DNA from: an uncultured Lachnospiraceae bacterium
GTDB lineage: Bacteria; Bacillota; Clostridia; Lachnospirales; Lachnospiraceae
DNA: 64,000 nucleotides
Direction: 5' to 3'
Assembly: GCA_947053345.1 (NCBI GenBank)
Contig: CAMRSM010000008.1
Coordinates: forward strand, 57,205 to 121,204
The notes under the pieces are model-generated. The model saw only the letters and a list, made by a program, of their open reading frames with translations, did not search any database and had not been told where the DNA came from. Each line of letters starts with the position of its first letter. Position 1 is the first letter of the stretch. This document shows, piece after piece, positions 12,267 through 64,000 of the stretch. Both the position numbers and the translations under genes were made by a program.

Positions 12267-13178
12267 TTATTTCGTAAATGTATGGGTATAAACAACAGAA
12301 CCATCTTGGTTTTCATACGATACTTTTACGGCCGGCTCCTTTACATCAATCAGGCGTTCCATCTCGTCAAGAACGCTGCCAAACTGACTTTCGTAAAGGT
12401 CAAGGCTGGCCTCAAAGGAAGCCGTCGTCTCATCTCCGATTGGCACTTCCACGTCATATACGTAGCGGTAGATGAGGGTATCACCGTCCGCCGTAATTTC
12501 CATCGACATGCCGGAACCCTCGATCTGTTTGACTGCCGCGTCAATCTGGTCTTTCTGCGCATCCAGATATTCCTGGACAGTGGCAAACATTTTGCCGCCG
12601 TCCGGCGAATCTGCGCCTCCCTTGACCACCTCGCCCGGTGTCGTTTTCACCCCATCTTTCGTAAAAGAACAGGAATATACAAGGGAACCGTCCGGATTCT
12701 CGTATAAAATCCGCACTTCCGGATCATCCCCATCAACCAGCTTTTCCATCTCCTCAAGGATTGCTTCAAACTGTGGCTTGTACGTGTCAAGATTTGAATC
12801 AAATGTATCAATTACATAGTCCGTCACTTCGACCGCTTCATCATAAACGTAACGGTAAACGAGCGCATCGCCATCCGCCTTGACCTCCATCGACATGCCG
12901 GAACCCATATTTTGCTTAATTGCAGCATCAATCTGATCCTGCTGTGCGTCGATATACGCCTGAACAGAAGCAAACATTTTTCCGCTGCCCAAAAGCTTGC
13001 CCGAAGAGTCGTCTTTCGAATCGTCTTCATTCTCCGAATTGTTCTGTTCCAAGTCCACATCGTTGCCGGAGGACTCCTCCTCCCCGTTGCCGCAGCCCAC
13101 GAGGGAAACTACCATAATCAGTGCCAGACATAGGCTGGCAAATAACGACAAAAATTTTTTCATGTTTTTTTCCTCCAT
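12267..13178 (-). CDS. Lipoprotein with two tandem DUF4854-like domains
   Basis: Lipobox VSLVGCGNG; two copies of F(A)xVQxYxDAQxDQIDAAxKQxxGSGMSMExxADGD. Confidence 0.8.
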   Translation of the reverse strand: MEEKNMKKFLSLFASLCLALIMVVSLVGCGNGEEESSGNDVDLEQNNSENEDDSKDDSSGKLLGSGKMFASVQAYIDAQQDQIDAAIKQNMGSGMSMEVKADGDALVYRYVYDEAVEVTDYVIDTFDSNLDTYKPQFEAILEEMEKLVDGDDPEVRILYENPDGSLVYSCSFTKDGVKTTPGEVVKGGADSPDGGKMFATVQEYLDAQKDQIDAAVKQIEGSGMSMEITADGDTLIYRYVYDVEVPIGDETTASFEASLDLYESQFGSVLDEMERLIDVKEPAVKVSYENQDGSVVYTHTFTK

Positions 13179-13193
13179 TTTAAGTTCCGCAAC

Positions 13194-13350
13194 CCCCCTT
13201 CCCCCAGTGCCCTTTTACGCGGAAGGCATTTCATCCGCCTTTGCTTCTGAAATCCCTTCCGGCACTGCTCTGGGGGTTTGCTGTCCCAAGTTCCGCAAAA
13301 CCTCTTTTCCAGTGCCCTTTCTTATGGAAAGGCACTGATTTAAATTTCCC
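13194..13350 (-). repeat. Palindromic intergenic repeat, one full copy (13194-13283) plus one truncated copy (from 13290)
   Basis: GTTCCGCAACCCCC..GGGGGTTTGCTG; internal CAGTGCC/GGCACTG and GGAAGG/CCTTCC arms. Confidence 0.75.
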
Positions 13351-19274: not shown

Positions 19275-20195
19275 TCATCCATTCTCTTTTTGTTCTTCCG
19301 CCAGCATGATAAACCCTGCCATACTGCCGCGCCTGCCGCCGCTTGCACGGTGCGAAAAAAACAAATCCTGACGGCACATCGTACAAAGTCCAGAAACTGC
19401 AATATGTTCCTTCCTTATCCCAGCACGAAGGAGCATCCGTTTGTTTGCCTCCCACAAATTTAACATATACTTATCCTGCCCCGGTGTATCAATGTCCTGC
19501 GGTCTCCTTTTCCGGGACAGGATGTAATTGCCGGTTCCGCCCGCAGCGGATATTTCCGGCGAATCTGCACGGATTTCCCCAAAACACTGAAAGAATTCCC
19601 CGGCAACCTCCGCTCCAACCTCGTAACATTCCGGCCCGATCGAAGGACCGATAGCGACGAGCAGGTCGGACGGTTCACTTCCAAATTCCTCCTGCATCCT
19701 CTCCACGGTTTTTGCGGCGATCCCGCCCACGCATCCGCGCCATCCGGCGTGTGCTGCGCCCGCCGCATGCTTTACCGGGTCATAAAAGAACAGCGGGACA
19801 CAGTCCGCACCGAATACCAGCAGTACCGTGCCGCGCTCATTTGTGATGTGTGCGTCCACTTCGCAGTAATCACGCTGCGAAAATATCCCCTTGCCGCAAT
19901 CCTTCCGGTATGCCTTCCGGACATTCGTCTTGTGCACTTGATCTGTAAAGACCAGCTGTTCGGGCGAAAATCCCATACTCCTGCAAATGCGGCGGTAATT
20001 CTCAAACACCCGTTCTTCCTCATCCCCCCGATGAAACCCAAGGTTCATGGAAGCAAAACAGCCCCTGCTCACCCCGCCAAGGCGCGTGGAAAATCCACAG
20101 ACAATTTCAGGGTGCGCCTCAAACAACGGAAACGCCACATAGGGGGTCGTATCCACATTTTTTAGGACTGCGTTCTCATTTATCATCCGGTCCAA
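19275..20195 (-). CDS. pgeF: Peptidoglycan editing factor PgeF / multicopper polyphenol oxidase (YfiH) family
   Basis: TDQVHKTNV; GADCVPLFFYDPVKHAAGAAHAGWRG; IGPSIGPECYEVG. Confidence 0.93.
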   Translation of the reverse strand: MDRMINENAVLKNVDTTPYVAFPLFEAHPEIVCGFSTRLGGVSRGCFASMNLGFHRGDEEERVFENYRRICRSMGFSPEQLVFTDQVHKTNVRKAYRKDCGKGIFSQRDYCEVDAHITNERGTVLLVFGADCVPLFFYDPVKHAAGAAHAGWRGCVGGIAAKTVERMQEEFGSEPSDLLVAIGPSIGPECYEVGAEVAGEFFQCFGEIRADSPEISAAGGTGNYILSRKRRPQDIDTPGQDKYMLNLWEANKRMLLRAGIRKEHIAVSGLCTMCRQDLFFSHRASGGRRGSMAGFIMLAEEQKENG

Positions 20196-20217
20196 CCTGT
20201 TTTTCCTCCTATTTTAA

Positions 20218-20440
20218 GTTCCGCATATCCCCTCCCCACACCCTCTTTCCGGCAGTGGGATTTCCTTCCTCCCGGCTCCAGGAAATCCCACTGGGGCGTT
20301 GTCCAGGGATATGCTGTTTTAAGTTCCGCATATCCCCTCCCCACACCCTCTTTCCGGCAGCGGGATTTCCTTCCTCCCGGCTCCAGGAAATCCCACCGAG
20401 CCGGTGATCAGCGGACATGCTGTTTTAAGTTCCGCATATC
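20218..20440 (-). repeat. Palindromic intergenic repeat, two full copies (20218-20316, 20323-20422; period 105) plus a truncated third
   Basis: GTTCCGCATATCCCCTCCCC..GGGATATGCTGTTTTAA; inner AGTGGGATTTCC/GGAAATCCCACT. Confidence 0.9.
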
Positions 20441-51001: not shown

Positions 51002-51577
51002 TCACGGGTCAACATTGAGCGTAAGCTGTATTTCCTCCTCCGCCTCAAGCTTAAAATCTTCAAGCTTTTCCGGGTTTACCGCCGGAAGTTCCTCCAGCGA
51101 TGCGATCCCGAAACTGCGCAGGAAGTCTTCGGTCGTCCCGAACAGGATCGGCCGCCCCGGCGCATCCATTCGTCCAACCTCACATACCAGATCGTATTCA
51201 ATCAGCTTATTTACCGCATGGTCGCTCTTTACCCCGCGGATTGCCTCAATTTCCTGCTTTGTGATCGGCTGTTTATAAGCGATGATCGAGAGCGTCTCCA
51301 GCAGAACATCGGTCAGCACATGCTTTTTCGGGACATGCGCAATCCGAACCAGATACTCATACATAGATGCTTTCGTACACATTTGGAACGCACCCTCCAG
51401 CTCAATGATCTTGATACCGCGCCCATTCTCCTCATAGCGCTGCATCATGCCGCGCACGGCTTCCCGCACCGTATCCTCGTCAAGCCCAACGGCAGCGGCG
51501 ATCCGTCTGACCTCGACGGCCTCGCCCATTGTAAAGAGGATCGCCTCCACGATCGCCTCAAGTTCGTTTCTTTCCAT
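51002..51577 (-). CDS. scpB: Segregation and condensation protein B
   Basis: LEAIVEAILFTMGEAVEVRRIAAAVGL..TLSIIAYKQPITKQEIEAIRGV. Confidence 0.97.
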   Translation of the reverse strand: MERNELEAIVEAILFTMGEAVEVRRIAAAVGLDEDTVREAVRGMMQRYEENGRGIKIIELEGAFQMCTKASMYEYLVRIAHVPKKHVLTDVLLETLSIIAYKQPITKQEIEAIRGVKSDHAVNKLIEYDLVCEVGRMDAPGRPILFGTTEDFLRSFGIASLEELPAVNPEKLEDFKLEAEEEIQLTLNVDP

Positions 51578-51598
51578 GCTGTTTCCTTTCTATACAGA

Positions 51599-51870
51599 GT
51601 TCCGCATACGCCCTCCCCCAGCACCGCATCCGCCGGAGGAATTTCTGGCCTCCCTGCTCCCACAAATTCCTCCGGGTACTGTTCCGGGCATATGCTGGTA
51701 CAGAGTTCCGCATATGCCCTCCCCCAGCACCGCATCCGCCGGAGGAATTTCTGGCCTCCCTGCTCCCACAAATTCCTCCGGGTACTGTTCCGGGCATATG
51801 CTGGTACAGAGTTCCGCATACGCCCTCCCCCAAGCACCGCATCCGCCGGAGGAATTTCTCGCCTCCCCAT
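51599..51870 (-). repeat. Palindromic intergenic repeat array, copies start at 51599, 51705, 51811 (period 106; last truncated)
   Basis: GTTCCGCATATGCCCTCCCCCAGCACC..GGGCATATGCTG; inner CCGGAGGAATTT/AAATTCCTCCGG. Confidence 0.93.
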
Positions 51871-51873
51871 GTT

Positions 51874-52653
51874 CTACCCGAACGAAAAATGATCCACCGG
51901 GGCAACATCTTCCGCCAGATAATCAATCTCGATGTCCTCAAACAGTTCCACCTGACGGATTGCAATGCGCCCCATTTTCATCAGTTCCAGCACTCCTAAA
52001 AAAGTGACAATGAGCTCCATCTTGTCCCGGCTGCCCGAAAGCAGGCCGCGGAAACTAAAATGCCTGCACTGCATCCCAAAATGCTGGATCTGAAGGATTT
52101 TGTCCGAGAGATTGACCTCCTCCCGCTCGATGCGCCCGAAACGGCTGCGGATCGGGTCAATCTTGTCGGTCTGCCGCTTCATGACTGAACGGAAGACGGC
52201 GTGCAGCTTTGAGAGTGTCAGATCAGCCAAGAGTTCCTTAGCATGGATTTCCTCCTTGAAATCCGCGATTTCCGGCGGCACGGTGCTCCTCTTAAAAAGC
52301 ATCATCGAGGCATCCAGCTGACGGTCTTTCAGCTCCTGTGATATATATTTGTACATTTTATATTCCAGAAGCCGCTCGACAAGCTCCTGCCTTGGATCAA
52401 TGATCTCCCCATCCTCTTTTGCTTCCTTCGGCAGCAGCATCTCCGACTTAATCCGCAGCAAGGTCGCCGCCATGACAAGAAATTCACTCATCACATCGAG
52501 ATTCTTCCTCTCCATCTGGTGGATGTATTCCATGTACTGCTCCGTGATCTGCACGATCGGGATGTCATATATATTTATTTTATTCTTATCAATCAGATGA
52601 AGGAGCAGATCGAGCGGACCCTCGAACGCCTCCAACTTTACCGGTATTCCCAT
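51874..52653 (-). CDS. scpA: Segregation and condensation protein A
   Basis: MGIPVKLEAFEGPLDLLLHLIDKNKINIYDIPIVQITEQYM. Confidence 0.97.
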   Translation of the reverse strand: MGIPVKLEAFEGPLDLLLHLIDKNKINIYDIPIVQITEQYMEYIHQMERKNLDVMSEFLVMAATLLRIKSEMLLPKEAKEDGEIIDPRQELVERLLEYKMYKYISQELKDRQLDASMMLFKRSTVPPEIADFKEEIHAKELLADLTLSKLHAVFRSVMKRQTDKIDPIRSRFGRIEREEVNLSDKILQIQHFGMQCRHFSFRGLLSGSRDKMELIVTFLGVLELMKMGRIAIRQVELFEDIEIDYLAEDVAPVDHFSFG

Positions 52654-52817
52654 ATTACACCATTCCAAGCGAATTTTTTCCGAAAAAACGGCTGCCGGAC
52701 GGTATCAAAGTCCGGCATACCCTATAACTATACTCATTTTTCCGGCAGTTGTCAAGAAGCTTGCGCCGTTTCATCCCAACAGCAAAATACGGCAATCCCG
52801 CAAGGTCTTGCGCGTCC

Positions 52818-56836: not shown

Positions 56837-57287
56837 AGTCCTCTCTCCCTTTTCCGCAAAAGGCCGCGGCATCAAAGACCGGGATTCCCGTCTGGCGCAG
56901 CGCCCGCGCAAACATCCCCTCGCCGGGAACCAGCCGTCCCGTAAAACTTCCGTCATAAACCTGTTCCACCCCGCAGGACGGGCTTCGCGGCTGTAAGATT
57001 GCCGCCGTGATTTCCTCCTCCCGTATCCTGTCAAGCACCGCCTTTACTCCCGCACGGAAACATGCATCCACATTCTCGCCCGCCCGGTTGATAGCCACGC
57101 CGTCCACCAGTTCAACAGGTACGCGCGGCACGGGAAGCCCTCCTTCCACCTCCGGGCAGACCTCCATGACTTCAACCGCCTTTTCTTTTAGGTAACGTAC
57201 CAGCGCTTCGCTGTAATTATTCCCGCCGTCATACTTACAATTACGCCCTAACAGACAGGCGCTGACCAGCACTTTTTTCTTTCCCAT
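56805..57287 (-). CDS. DUF523 family protein
   Basis: KKVLVSACLLGRNCKYDGGNN..VCPEVEGGLPVPR..LQPRSPSCG. Confidence 0.93.
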   Translation of the reverse strand: MGKKKVLVSACLLGRNCKYDGGNNYSEALVRYLKEKAVEVMEVCPEVEGGLPVPRVPVELVDGVAINRAGENVDACFRAGVKAVLDRIREEEITAAILQPRSPSCGVEQVYDGSFTGRLVPGEGMFARALRQTGIPVFDAAAFCGKGREDYVRHFEELIR

Positions 57288-63367: not shown

Positions 63368-63678
63368 AAGATCCACCTCGCATTCTTCCATAGATAGAGC
63401 AGCTTACAATTTCAACCGCTTTCCCACACGGCACAAATAAGATAAGTCTTCCTGTGCCCTCTCGCCAGCCAAATGGCACGATATCGATATATTATAAGCA
63501 TATTCTATACCGAACCTATAGAATAATCAACCGTTTACGATCAAAATCATGGATACATTCCGTTTTTTCGTTGACATTTGCCAAAAATAAGTATACAATG
63601 TTTGTGCCATGCAATATTTGTTAATTTAACGTTTTAAACCATTGATGTGGTGTCGGAATATAACACGCGGAACAAAAA

Positions 63679-64000
63679 CAGCATATGCCCGGAAGGGATT
63701 TCCGGGAGCCATGCGGACAGAAATGCCTTCCACGGTTTAGGGGGATTGGGAGGGCATATGCGGAACAAACACAGCATGTGCCAAGACATGCCCGGAAGGG
63801 ATTTCTGGGAGCCATGCGGACAGAAATGCCTTCCACGGATAGGGGGATTGGGAGGGCATATGCGGAACAAACACAGCATGTGCCCGGACAATGCCCGGAA
63901 GGGATTTCTGGGAGCCATGCGGACAGAAATGCCTTCCACGGATAGGGGGATTGGGAGGGCATATGCGGAACAAACACAGCATGTGCCCGGACAATGCCCG
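63679..64000 (+). repeat. Palindromic intergenic repeat array in opposite orientation: copies 63679-63766, 63772-63866, 63874-63971, fourth cut by window edge
   Basis: CAGCATATGCCC..GGGCATATGCGGAAC; inner GGAAGGGATTTC/GAAATGCCTTCC. Confidence 0.92.

Follow-up and report, generated by a model that had tools for sequence, protein, structure and literature searches.

The 64,000-nucleotide stretch of DNA analysed here (the window; positions 57205 to 121204 of contig C8 of genome G000, CAMRSM010000008.1, GCA_947053345.1, its right end being the contig end) carries members of a family of structured repeats with units of ~105 nt, of which this Lachnospiraceae genome (4.1 Mb) has at least 167 copies in ~110 arrays. 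The units fold into a hairpin whose helices covary, with an asymmetry between the two strands; they lie in the sense orientation immediately 5' of ribosome-binding sites, they are homogenised within arrays, they are patchily distributed among genomes, and the sites that they occupy vary between species. With moderate confidence we regard them as a structured RNA element that proliferates in the leaders of mRNAs and between cistrons, which would supply a portable hairpin plus spacer at the translation start.

The scpA-scpB array and the extent of the family

The genes scpA (51874..52668, 264 aa, with homologues in 80 Lachnospiraceae) and scpB (51002..51577, 191 aa), both mechanically called open reading frames of the minus strand, are separated by a repeat array for which tandem-repeat analysis gave 2.6 copies of a 106-bp unit with 97% matches (51593-51867). 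The minus strand is the meaningful reading direction (CAGCATATGCC...GGCATATGCGGAAC-linker). Read in this way, the array begins directly after the scpA stop codon with a 5'-truncated third unit consisting of the 3' half and linker only (51805..51867, minus; tandem-repeat and repeat searches, sequence), continues with a second unit (51698..51803, minus; 88.4 bits with covariance model R2) and ends with a complete unit of hairpin and linker (51590..51697, minus; 94.8 bits, E 4e-22, E-values being rough), followed by the Shine-Dalgarno (SD) sequence AGAAAGGA and the ATG of scpB. The array ends at the SD region of scpB (AGAAAGGAAA, 51581..51590, minus). In folding predictions one unit reached -54.2 kcal/mol on the minus (coding) strand, compared with -35.0 for shuffled sequence (z = -5.7), and -41.0 kcal/mol on the opposite strand (z = -4.1).

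A sequence-only reading of the window had described a dispersed, structured repeat family with a 106-bp-period array between these genes. This description was confirmed in sequence and coordinates, including the quoted unit ends and the inner stem CCGGAGGAATTT/AAATTCCTCCGG, and the copies noticed at 13.2, 20.2 and 63.7 kb proved to belong to the same family (67-77% DNA identity). At 20.2 kb, 2.2 copies of 105 bp precede a pgeF/YfiH-like gene (19275-20195, minus): a unit at 20209..20316 (minus; 103.2 bits), a second at 20317..20422 (minus; 75.1 bits, also found by tandem-repeat analysis) and a truncated remnant at ~20423-20440. At 13.2 kb, one full unit (13175..13283, minus; 74.7 bits) and a remnant lie 5' of a lipoprotein-like gene of 298 aa with a likely start ATG at ~13163. 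The 63.7-kb array, on the plus strand, comprises at least three copies of 103 bp (63679..63771, 62.5 bits; 63772..63873, 92.8 bits; 63874..63979, 106.6 bits) and continues off the contig end (window 64000 = 121204). About 80 nt 5' of it, a consensus scan predicted a sigma-70-like promoter, TTGACA-17-TACAAT (63571..63599, plus; 11/12, with 1.1 sites per region in shuffled sequence), so that the sense strand of the unit is also the predicted transcribed strand.

The ~9 copies estimated for the window amount to 8 full units by model R2 plus truncated ones. A covariance model made from seven window copies (R1) found 144 copies, and 95 stretches covering every array found by R1 were retrieved; model R2, built from 145 copies with 34 pairs, located 161 copies in 104 arrays within these stretches, and a whole-genome search added six places, giving the total of at least 167. 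Copies elsewhere in the genome are therefore abundant. Arrays contain 1-5 units in a single orientation throughout, with no mixed-orientation cluster, and are homogenised locally, the median identity being 92% for adjacent units vs 59% for random pairs. Because 23 of the 104 arrays run off their contig at the 3' side, array lengths are underestimated and the real arrays may be longer. Contigs of G000 break inside arrays at window position 64000 and at the ends of C6, C7, C15, C35, C37, C41, C46, C60 and C72, and arrays of this kind explain contig breaks in the genomes carrying them. Separately, near-identical loci on two contig pairs (L175/L177 on C33/C34 and L189/L207 on C43/C70) suggest duplicated contigs or a strain mixture in the assembly.

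Hairpin structure and covariation

The sense-strand consensus, CAGCAtntgcCCGgAc...CCggaaGgaaTTT..GGGAGcngnGCGGAC..AAAtnccTtcc...GGgAGGGnanaTGCGGaAC-TtaAAAtAg, describes a long imperfect hairpin. Its outer helix (~10 bp) gives way to a purine internal loop of the GGA/GGA type, which is followed by the middle helix (~8 bp), a bulge of 8 nt and the 14-bp inner helix; in this genus another GGA/GGA loop lies close to the tip. The linker GGAACUUAAAA comes after the hairpin. The two 3x3 internal loops are kept as G.A, G.G and A.G in 73-86% of copies, the middle pair of the outer loop being more variable; copies from other genera retain the outer loop in a GNA/GNA form and have a different tip.

Covariation of the pairs, which the sequence-only reading had proposed as a check, was very strong when pair changes were counted against slid and shuffled controls. 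In an alignment of 139 distinct copies (A2), 25 of the 27 pairs were altered on both sides, in 635 cells, compared to 58-92 cells after sliding by 1-3 columns and 196 after shuffling, and in a second alignment (A3), of independent copies that come from other species and genera, the same held for 32/34 pairs (402 cells vs 51-68 slid), both alignments having been fitted to the model and hence being biased towards its structure. A plain MAFFT alignment of the seven window copies, not fitted to the model, had both-side changes in 12/27 pairs. Mutual information over 98 copies of <90% identity ranked stem pairs first and added the middle helix, and columns 6-9 of the outer stem vary between copies by paired changes. 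The compensatory covariation of its helices, which exceeds the controls, is as would be expected of a structured RNA element. Moreover, the ratio of G-U to A-C combinations on the sense strand was 1.78 in A2 vs 1.21 when shuffled (maximum 1.29), and 2.93 in A3 vs 1.35 (maximum 1.53). An excess of G-U over A-C beyond that expected from composition suggests that it is one strand that folds, as RNA does.

These results bear directly on the main rival explanation, which we consider rather unlikely: that the units are selfish interspersed DNA palindromes, inserting at SD sites or surviving only there, with no role for the host, and with a hairpin kept paired by arm-to-arm template switching during replication together with selection for copying. 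Template switching is able to create and maintain hairpins and to mimic compensatory change (PMC8794818), so that covariation as such would be compatible with this explanation. However, the G-U excess implies that one strand matters, and the GGA/GGA mismatches persist although template switching should erase them; taken together, strand asymmetry and conserved mismatches in the loops speak against a selfish palindrome kept paired by template switching as a full account.

Position at ribosome-binding sites and turnover of sites

The 3' flank was readable and non-redundant for 79 arrays, and in 78 of these a same-strand open reading frame started 8-39 nt past the model end (median 13). In 75 of the 79 the start lay at 8-24 nt and was accompanied by an SD motif, whereas 5.1% of random spacer points satisfied the same criterion. 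In the 78 arrays the last unit is followed, in this order, by an A-rich spacer, the SD sequence and the start codon of the same-strand gene. In the single exception, a three-unit array (L160 2501-2810) precedes the SD and start codon of an 8-codon open reading frame (MGRDVMFA), possibly a leader peptide or a decayed gene, with a gene ~118 nt beyond. In other species and genera the start was found at 9-18 nt in nearly all readable cases, for example those of atpE, atpF, metK, galE and purE.

An independent gene call classified the flanks as co-directional in 54 cases and divergent in 10, and no classified array had a convergent downstream gene, although convergent array-free spacers occur nearby (15/165). 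The 10 divergent upstream genes indicate that the element also leads the first genes of operons. The defining trait is the position directly 5' of a same-strand SD, first genes of operons included, and not the separation of two genes that the sequence-only reading had emphasised, scpA-scpB being one of ~110 sites; its proposal of a role at the mRNA level within operons stays the best reading of data in which arrays do lie inside operons. One operon (L187, G000:C41:4402-12656) has grpE, dnaK and dnaJ each with an array of its own. As to the selfish palindromes considered above, a constant sense and an 8-24 nt spacing in several genera, with convergent spacers present and unused, exceed what tolerance would produce.

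The downstream genes include scpB and, as named by eye from their translations, fusA, guaB, clpX, mutS, mutL, grpE, dnaK, dnaJ, metG, proS, purH, glmS, mfd, rplQ, rpsK, glnA, flhA and pilT. No functional theme or conserved regulon was found among these unrelated, often essential housekeeping genes. In two other genera the element precedes purE, and in two it precedes an amidohydrolase-like gene (L467 and L475; L476 and L480), a hint of recurrent target genes across genera. Folding, performed for a single state only, left the SD-AUG region unpaired to the same extent with the real and the shuffled hairpin (0.610 vs 0.606; p = 0.86), so that no direct effect on initiation shows in silico, and an SD-sequestering riboswitch or thermosensor was rejected on account of this equal accessibility.

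The covariance model found the family in nine other genomes with 2-130 copies each, seven genera in all. Counts with R2 were 88, 12 and 11 in three congeners and 0 in two others, both of them incomplete assemblies, the within-genus genomes being all draft assemblies and at least some of them MAGs; in six other genera they were 130, 100, 70, 47, 2 and 2. The element is dispensable, as the two congeners with incomplete assemblies have none. In an evenly drawn sample of Lachnospiraceae at least 8 of 397 genomes were positive, a lower bound under strict filters, and an order-wide sample yielded nothing convincing outside the family, its one weak single match (35 bits) being taken as chance. None of 80 other Lachnospiraceae scpA-scpB loci carried the element.

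Comparison of orthologous sites showed that the occupied sites vary among congeners. Sampled genes filled in this genome were also filled in 11/22 cases in the closest congener, in 3/15 and 2/23 in two others, and in 0/16 and 0/9 in the congeners without the family (counts that exclude two pattern matches in G004, at abcF and clpC, lacking model support). The dnaJ site is filled in two congeners (G001 included) and empty in a third, and the dnaK site is filled only in this genome and empty in relatives. The empty sites retain the SD region that follows the array in filled ones: TAGGAGGAAAAATCC at fusA, CAGGAGG at rpsK, TAGGAGG at rplQ and AAGAAAGAGAGG at guaB. In the filled and empty orthologous sites of fusA, rpsK, rplQ, dnaK, dnaJ, scpB and guaB the host SD region is kept with the element adjoining it, so that the element joins its host on the right immediately before the SD sequence of the latter. 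The left ends, on the other hand, are variable, many arrays opening with a 3' unit fragment, and a direct repeat of constant length closing the element on this side was looked for and not found (match lengths from 0 to 54, with no peak). As regards a target-site duplication, such as a MITE would leave, an SD-like stretch stands on both sides of the element at rpsK and rplQ, while most left flanks are variable truncations; the short variant unit 5' of rpsK (L199 4759-4821) lies between such stretches (CTAGGAGG / CGGGACAGAGA...AAAACAGGAGG), possibly the footprint of an insertion event. At most shared sites the orthologous copies resemble each other no more than random ones do, so the element sequences must be replaced or scrambled quickly; gmt (89%, G004) and glgP (77%, G001) are exceptions. 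The dnaK-dnaJ spacer also contains a conserved inverted repeat, ACCCGGGTGTGGGAGAAATTTCACATCCGGGTTTT, in G000, G001 and G002 (L254-L257), which is terminator-like and independent of the element.

Several observations speak for selfish palindromes, namely the patchiness among genomes (some with 2 to at least 167 copies, congeners and most of the family with none), the random set of downstream genes, the fast replacement at shared sites, the left ends resembling truncations and the homogenised tandem copies. It is the strand asymmetry, the persistent mismatches and the constant placement that weigh against them.

Possible role, spread and relation to known repeats

In the reading that we favour, tandems of 1-5 units ending directly 5' of the SD sequence of a same-strand gene would work at the mRNA level, giving the translation initiation site a portable module of hairpin plus spacer. 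The most likely role would be protection of the cistron on its 5' side, against nucleases or against long-range pairing, or that of a general platform for binding of proteins or ribosomes; a gene-specific switch is less favoured because folding predicts unchanged SD-AUG accessibility. Since the right end is fixed at the SD, the left end is ragged and no Y1 transposase was found, we suggest that the element may spread by copying anchored at the SD sequence, with a fixed right and a free left end, followed by tandem duplication. More tentatively, the family could represent a new class of portable translation-initiation RNA that propagates itself at SD sites by such SD-anchored copying, brings its own unpaired spacer and sets mRNA stability or initiation globally for ~3% of the host genes. 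Small interspersed palindromes of bacteria are usually seen as tolerated extragenic DNA; here, more than 160 copies occupy almost exclusively one functional address, the 5' edge of the ribosome-binding sites of core genes, always in the sense orientation, with covarying structure of RNA grade and in seven genera. This raises testable questions, namely how a repeat finds SD sites and spreads, and what effect an upstream hairpin of a general kind has on translation or on the decay of mRNA in Firmicutes, and it would provide a natural counterpart of synthetic leader insulators.

A regulon in which a ligand or a protein (e.g. a GGA binder of the CsrA kind) recognises the hairpins in trans and controls the ~110 genes together appears improbable. 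GGA motifs do recur in the loops, the genome has a CsrA gene and tandem multiplicity could tune affinity, but CsrA does not track the element, being present in congeners without it, the loops differ in other genera, the downstream genes share no functional theme and SD accessibility shows no switch-like effect. The REP/BIME-like or MITE-like identity put forward by the sequence-only reading can be given very little credence, since the short, palindromic, intergenic units in more than 100 copies come with no REP-associated Y1 tyrosine transposase (RAYT; PF01797) in this 98%-complete genome (a control search being positive in 5/14 genomes), are head-to-tail and never of alternating orientation, have stem sequences not conserved between copies, and were not matched by any of 50,697 phage or 72,556 plasmid records. 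The GT(A/G)G head of REP is also absent (the ends read CAGCA...TGCGGAAC), and the "terminal repeats" formed by the outer stem are unlike transposase-bound ends because paired changes make them differ freely between copies.

In position the element can be likened to the TAACTGA repeats and in build to the BOX and REP repeats. The TAACTGA direct repeats of Beggiatoaceae, Cyanobacteria and Bacteroidetes, of which a genome may have more than 100 sets and for which a translational role was proposed, are likewise tandem, taxonomically patchy and located just 5' of the start codons of unrelated and essential genes, ribosomal proteins included (PMC4679880). However, they are 7-mers that overlap the ribosome-binding site, with SD motifs in only ~10% of repeat-bearing regions (PMC4679880), whereas the element here is a 105-nt covarying hairpin next to an SD sequence that is nearly always kept; identity with them was rejected because the unit consensus lacks TAACTGA and a separate SD is retained. 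The BOX, RUP and SPRITE elements of Streptococcus pneumoniae are also small interspersed repeats of modular build that vary in internal copy number and can be transcribed in 5' or 3' extensions of operons, and BOX was reported to modulate downstream genes (PMC3049150). They are over-represented between convergent genes (PMC3049150), in contrast to the arrays classified here, which keep a constant place and strand with respect to the start codon and none of which has a convergent downstream gene despite the available convergent spacers, and a BOX/RUP-like placement was discarded. REP/BIME sequences with RAYT are similarly palindromic, clustered and of high copy number (PMC2817692), whereas the element here is head-to-tail only, ~105 nt long and 5' of genes.

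A search of Rfam over the window gave no match at gathering or relaxed thresholds, the best sub-threshold hit having 22 bits against a threshold of 82. In viral contigs an exact 21-mer and a gapped pattern had no matches and a 15-mer had 92, by estimate about chance for such a collection; of the 80 viral loci kept, just one matched the model strongly (37 bits), and it resembles a phage coding sequence and was rejected. Mycobacterial intergenic repeats of the MIRU type form tandem units of ~50-100 bp between operon genes, as here; they are not known to have a covarying hairpin or a fixed relation to the SD sequence. In the open-access literature searched, only analogues and no earlier description of the element were found. 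The window also contains, at 543-583, an 11-bp tandem repeat, TGCTACAAAAG, in 3.7 exact copies.
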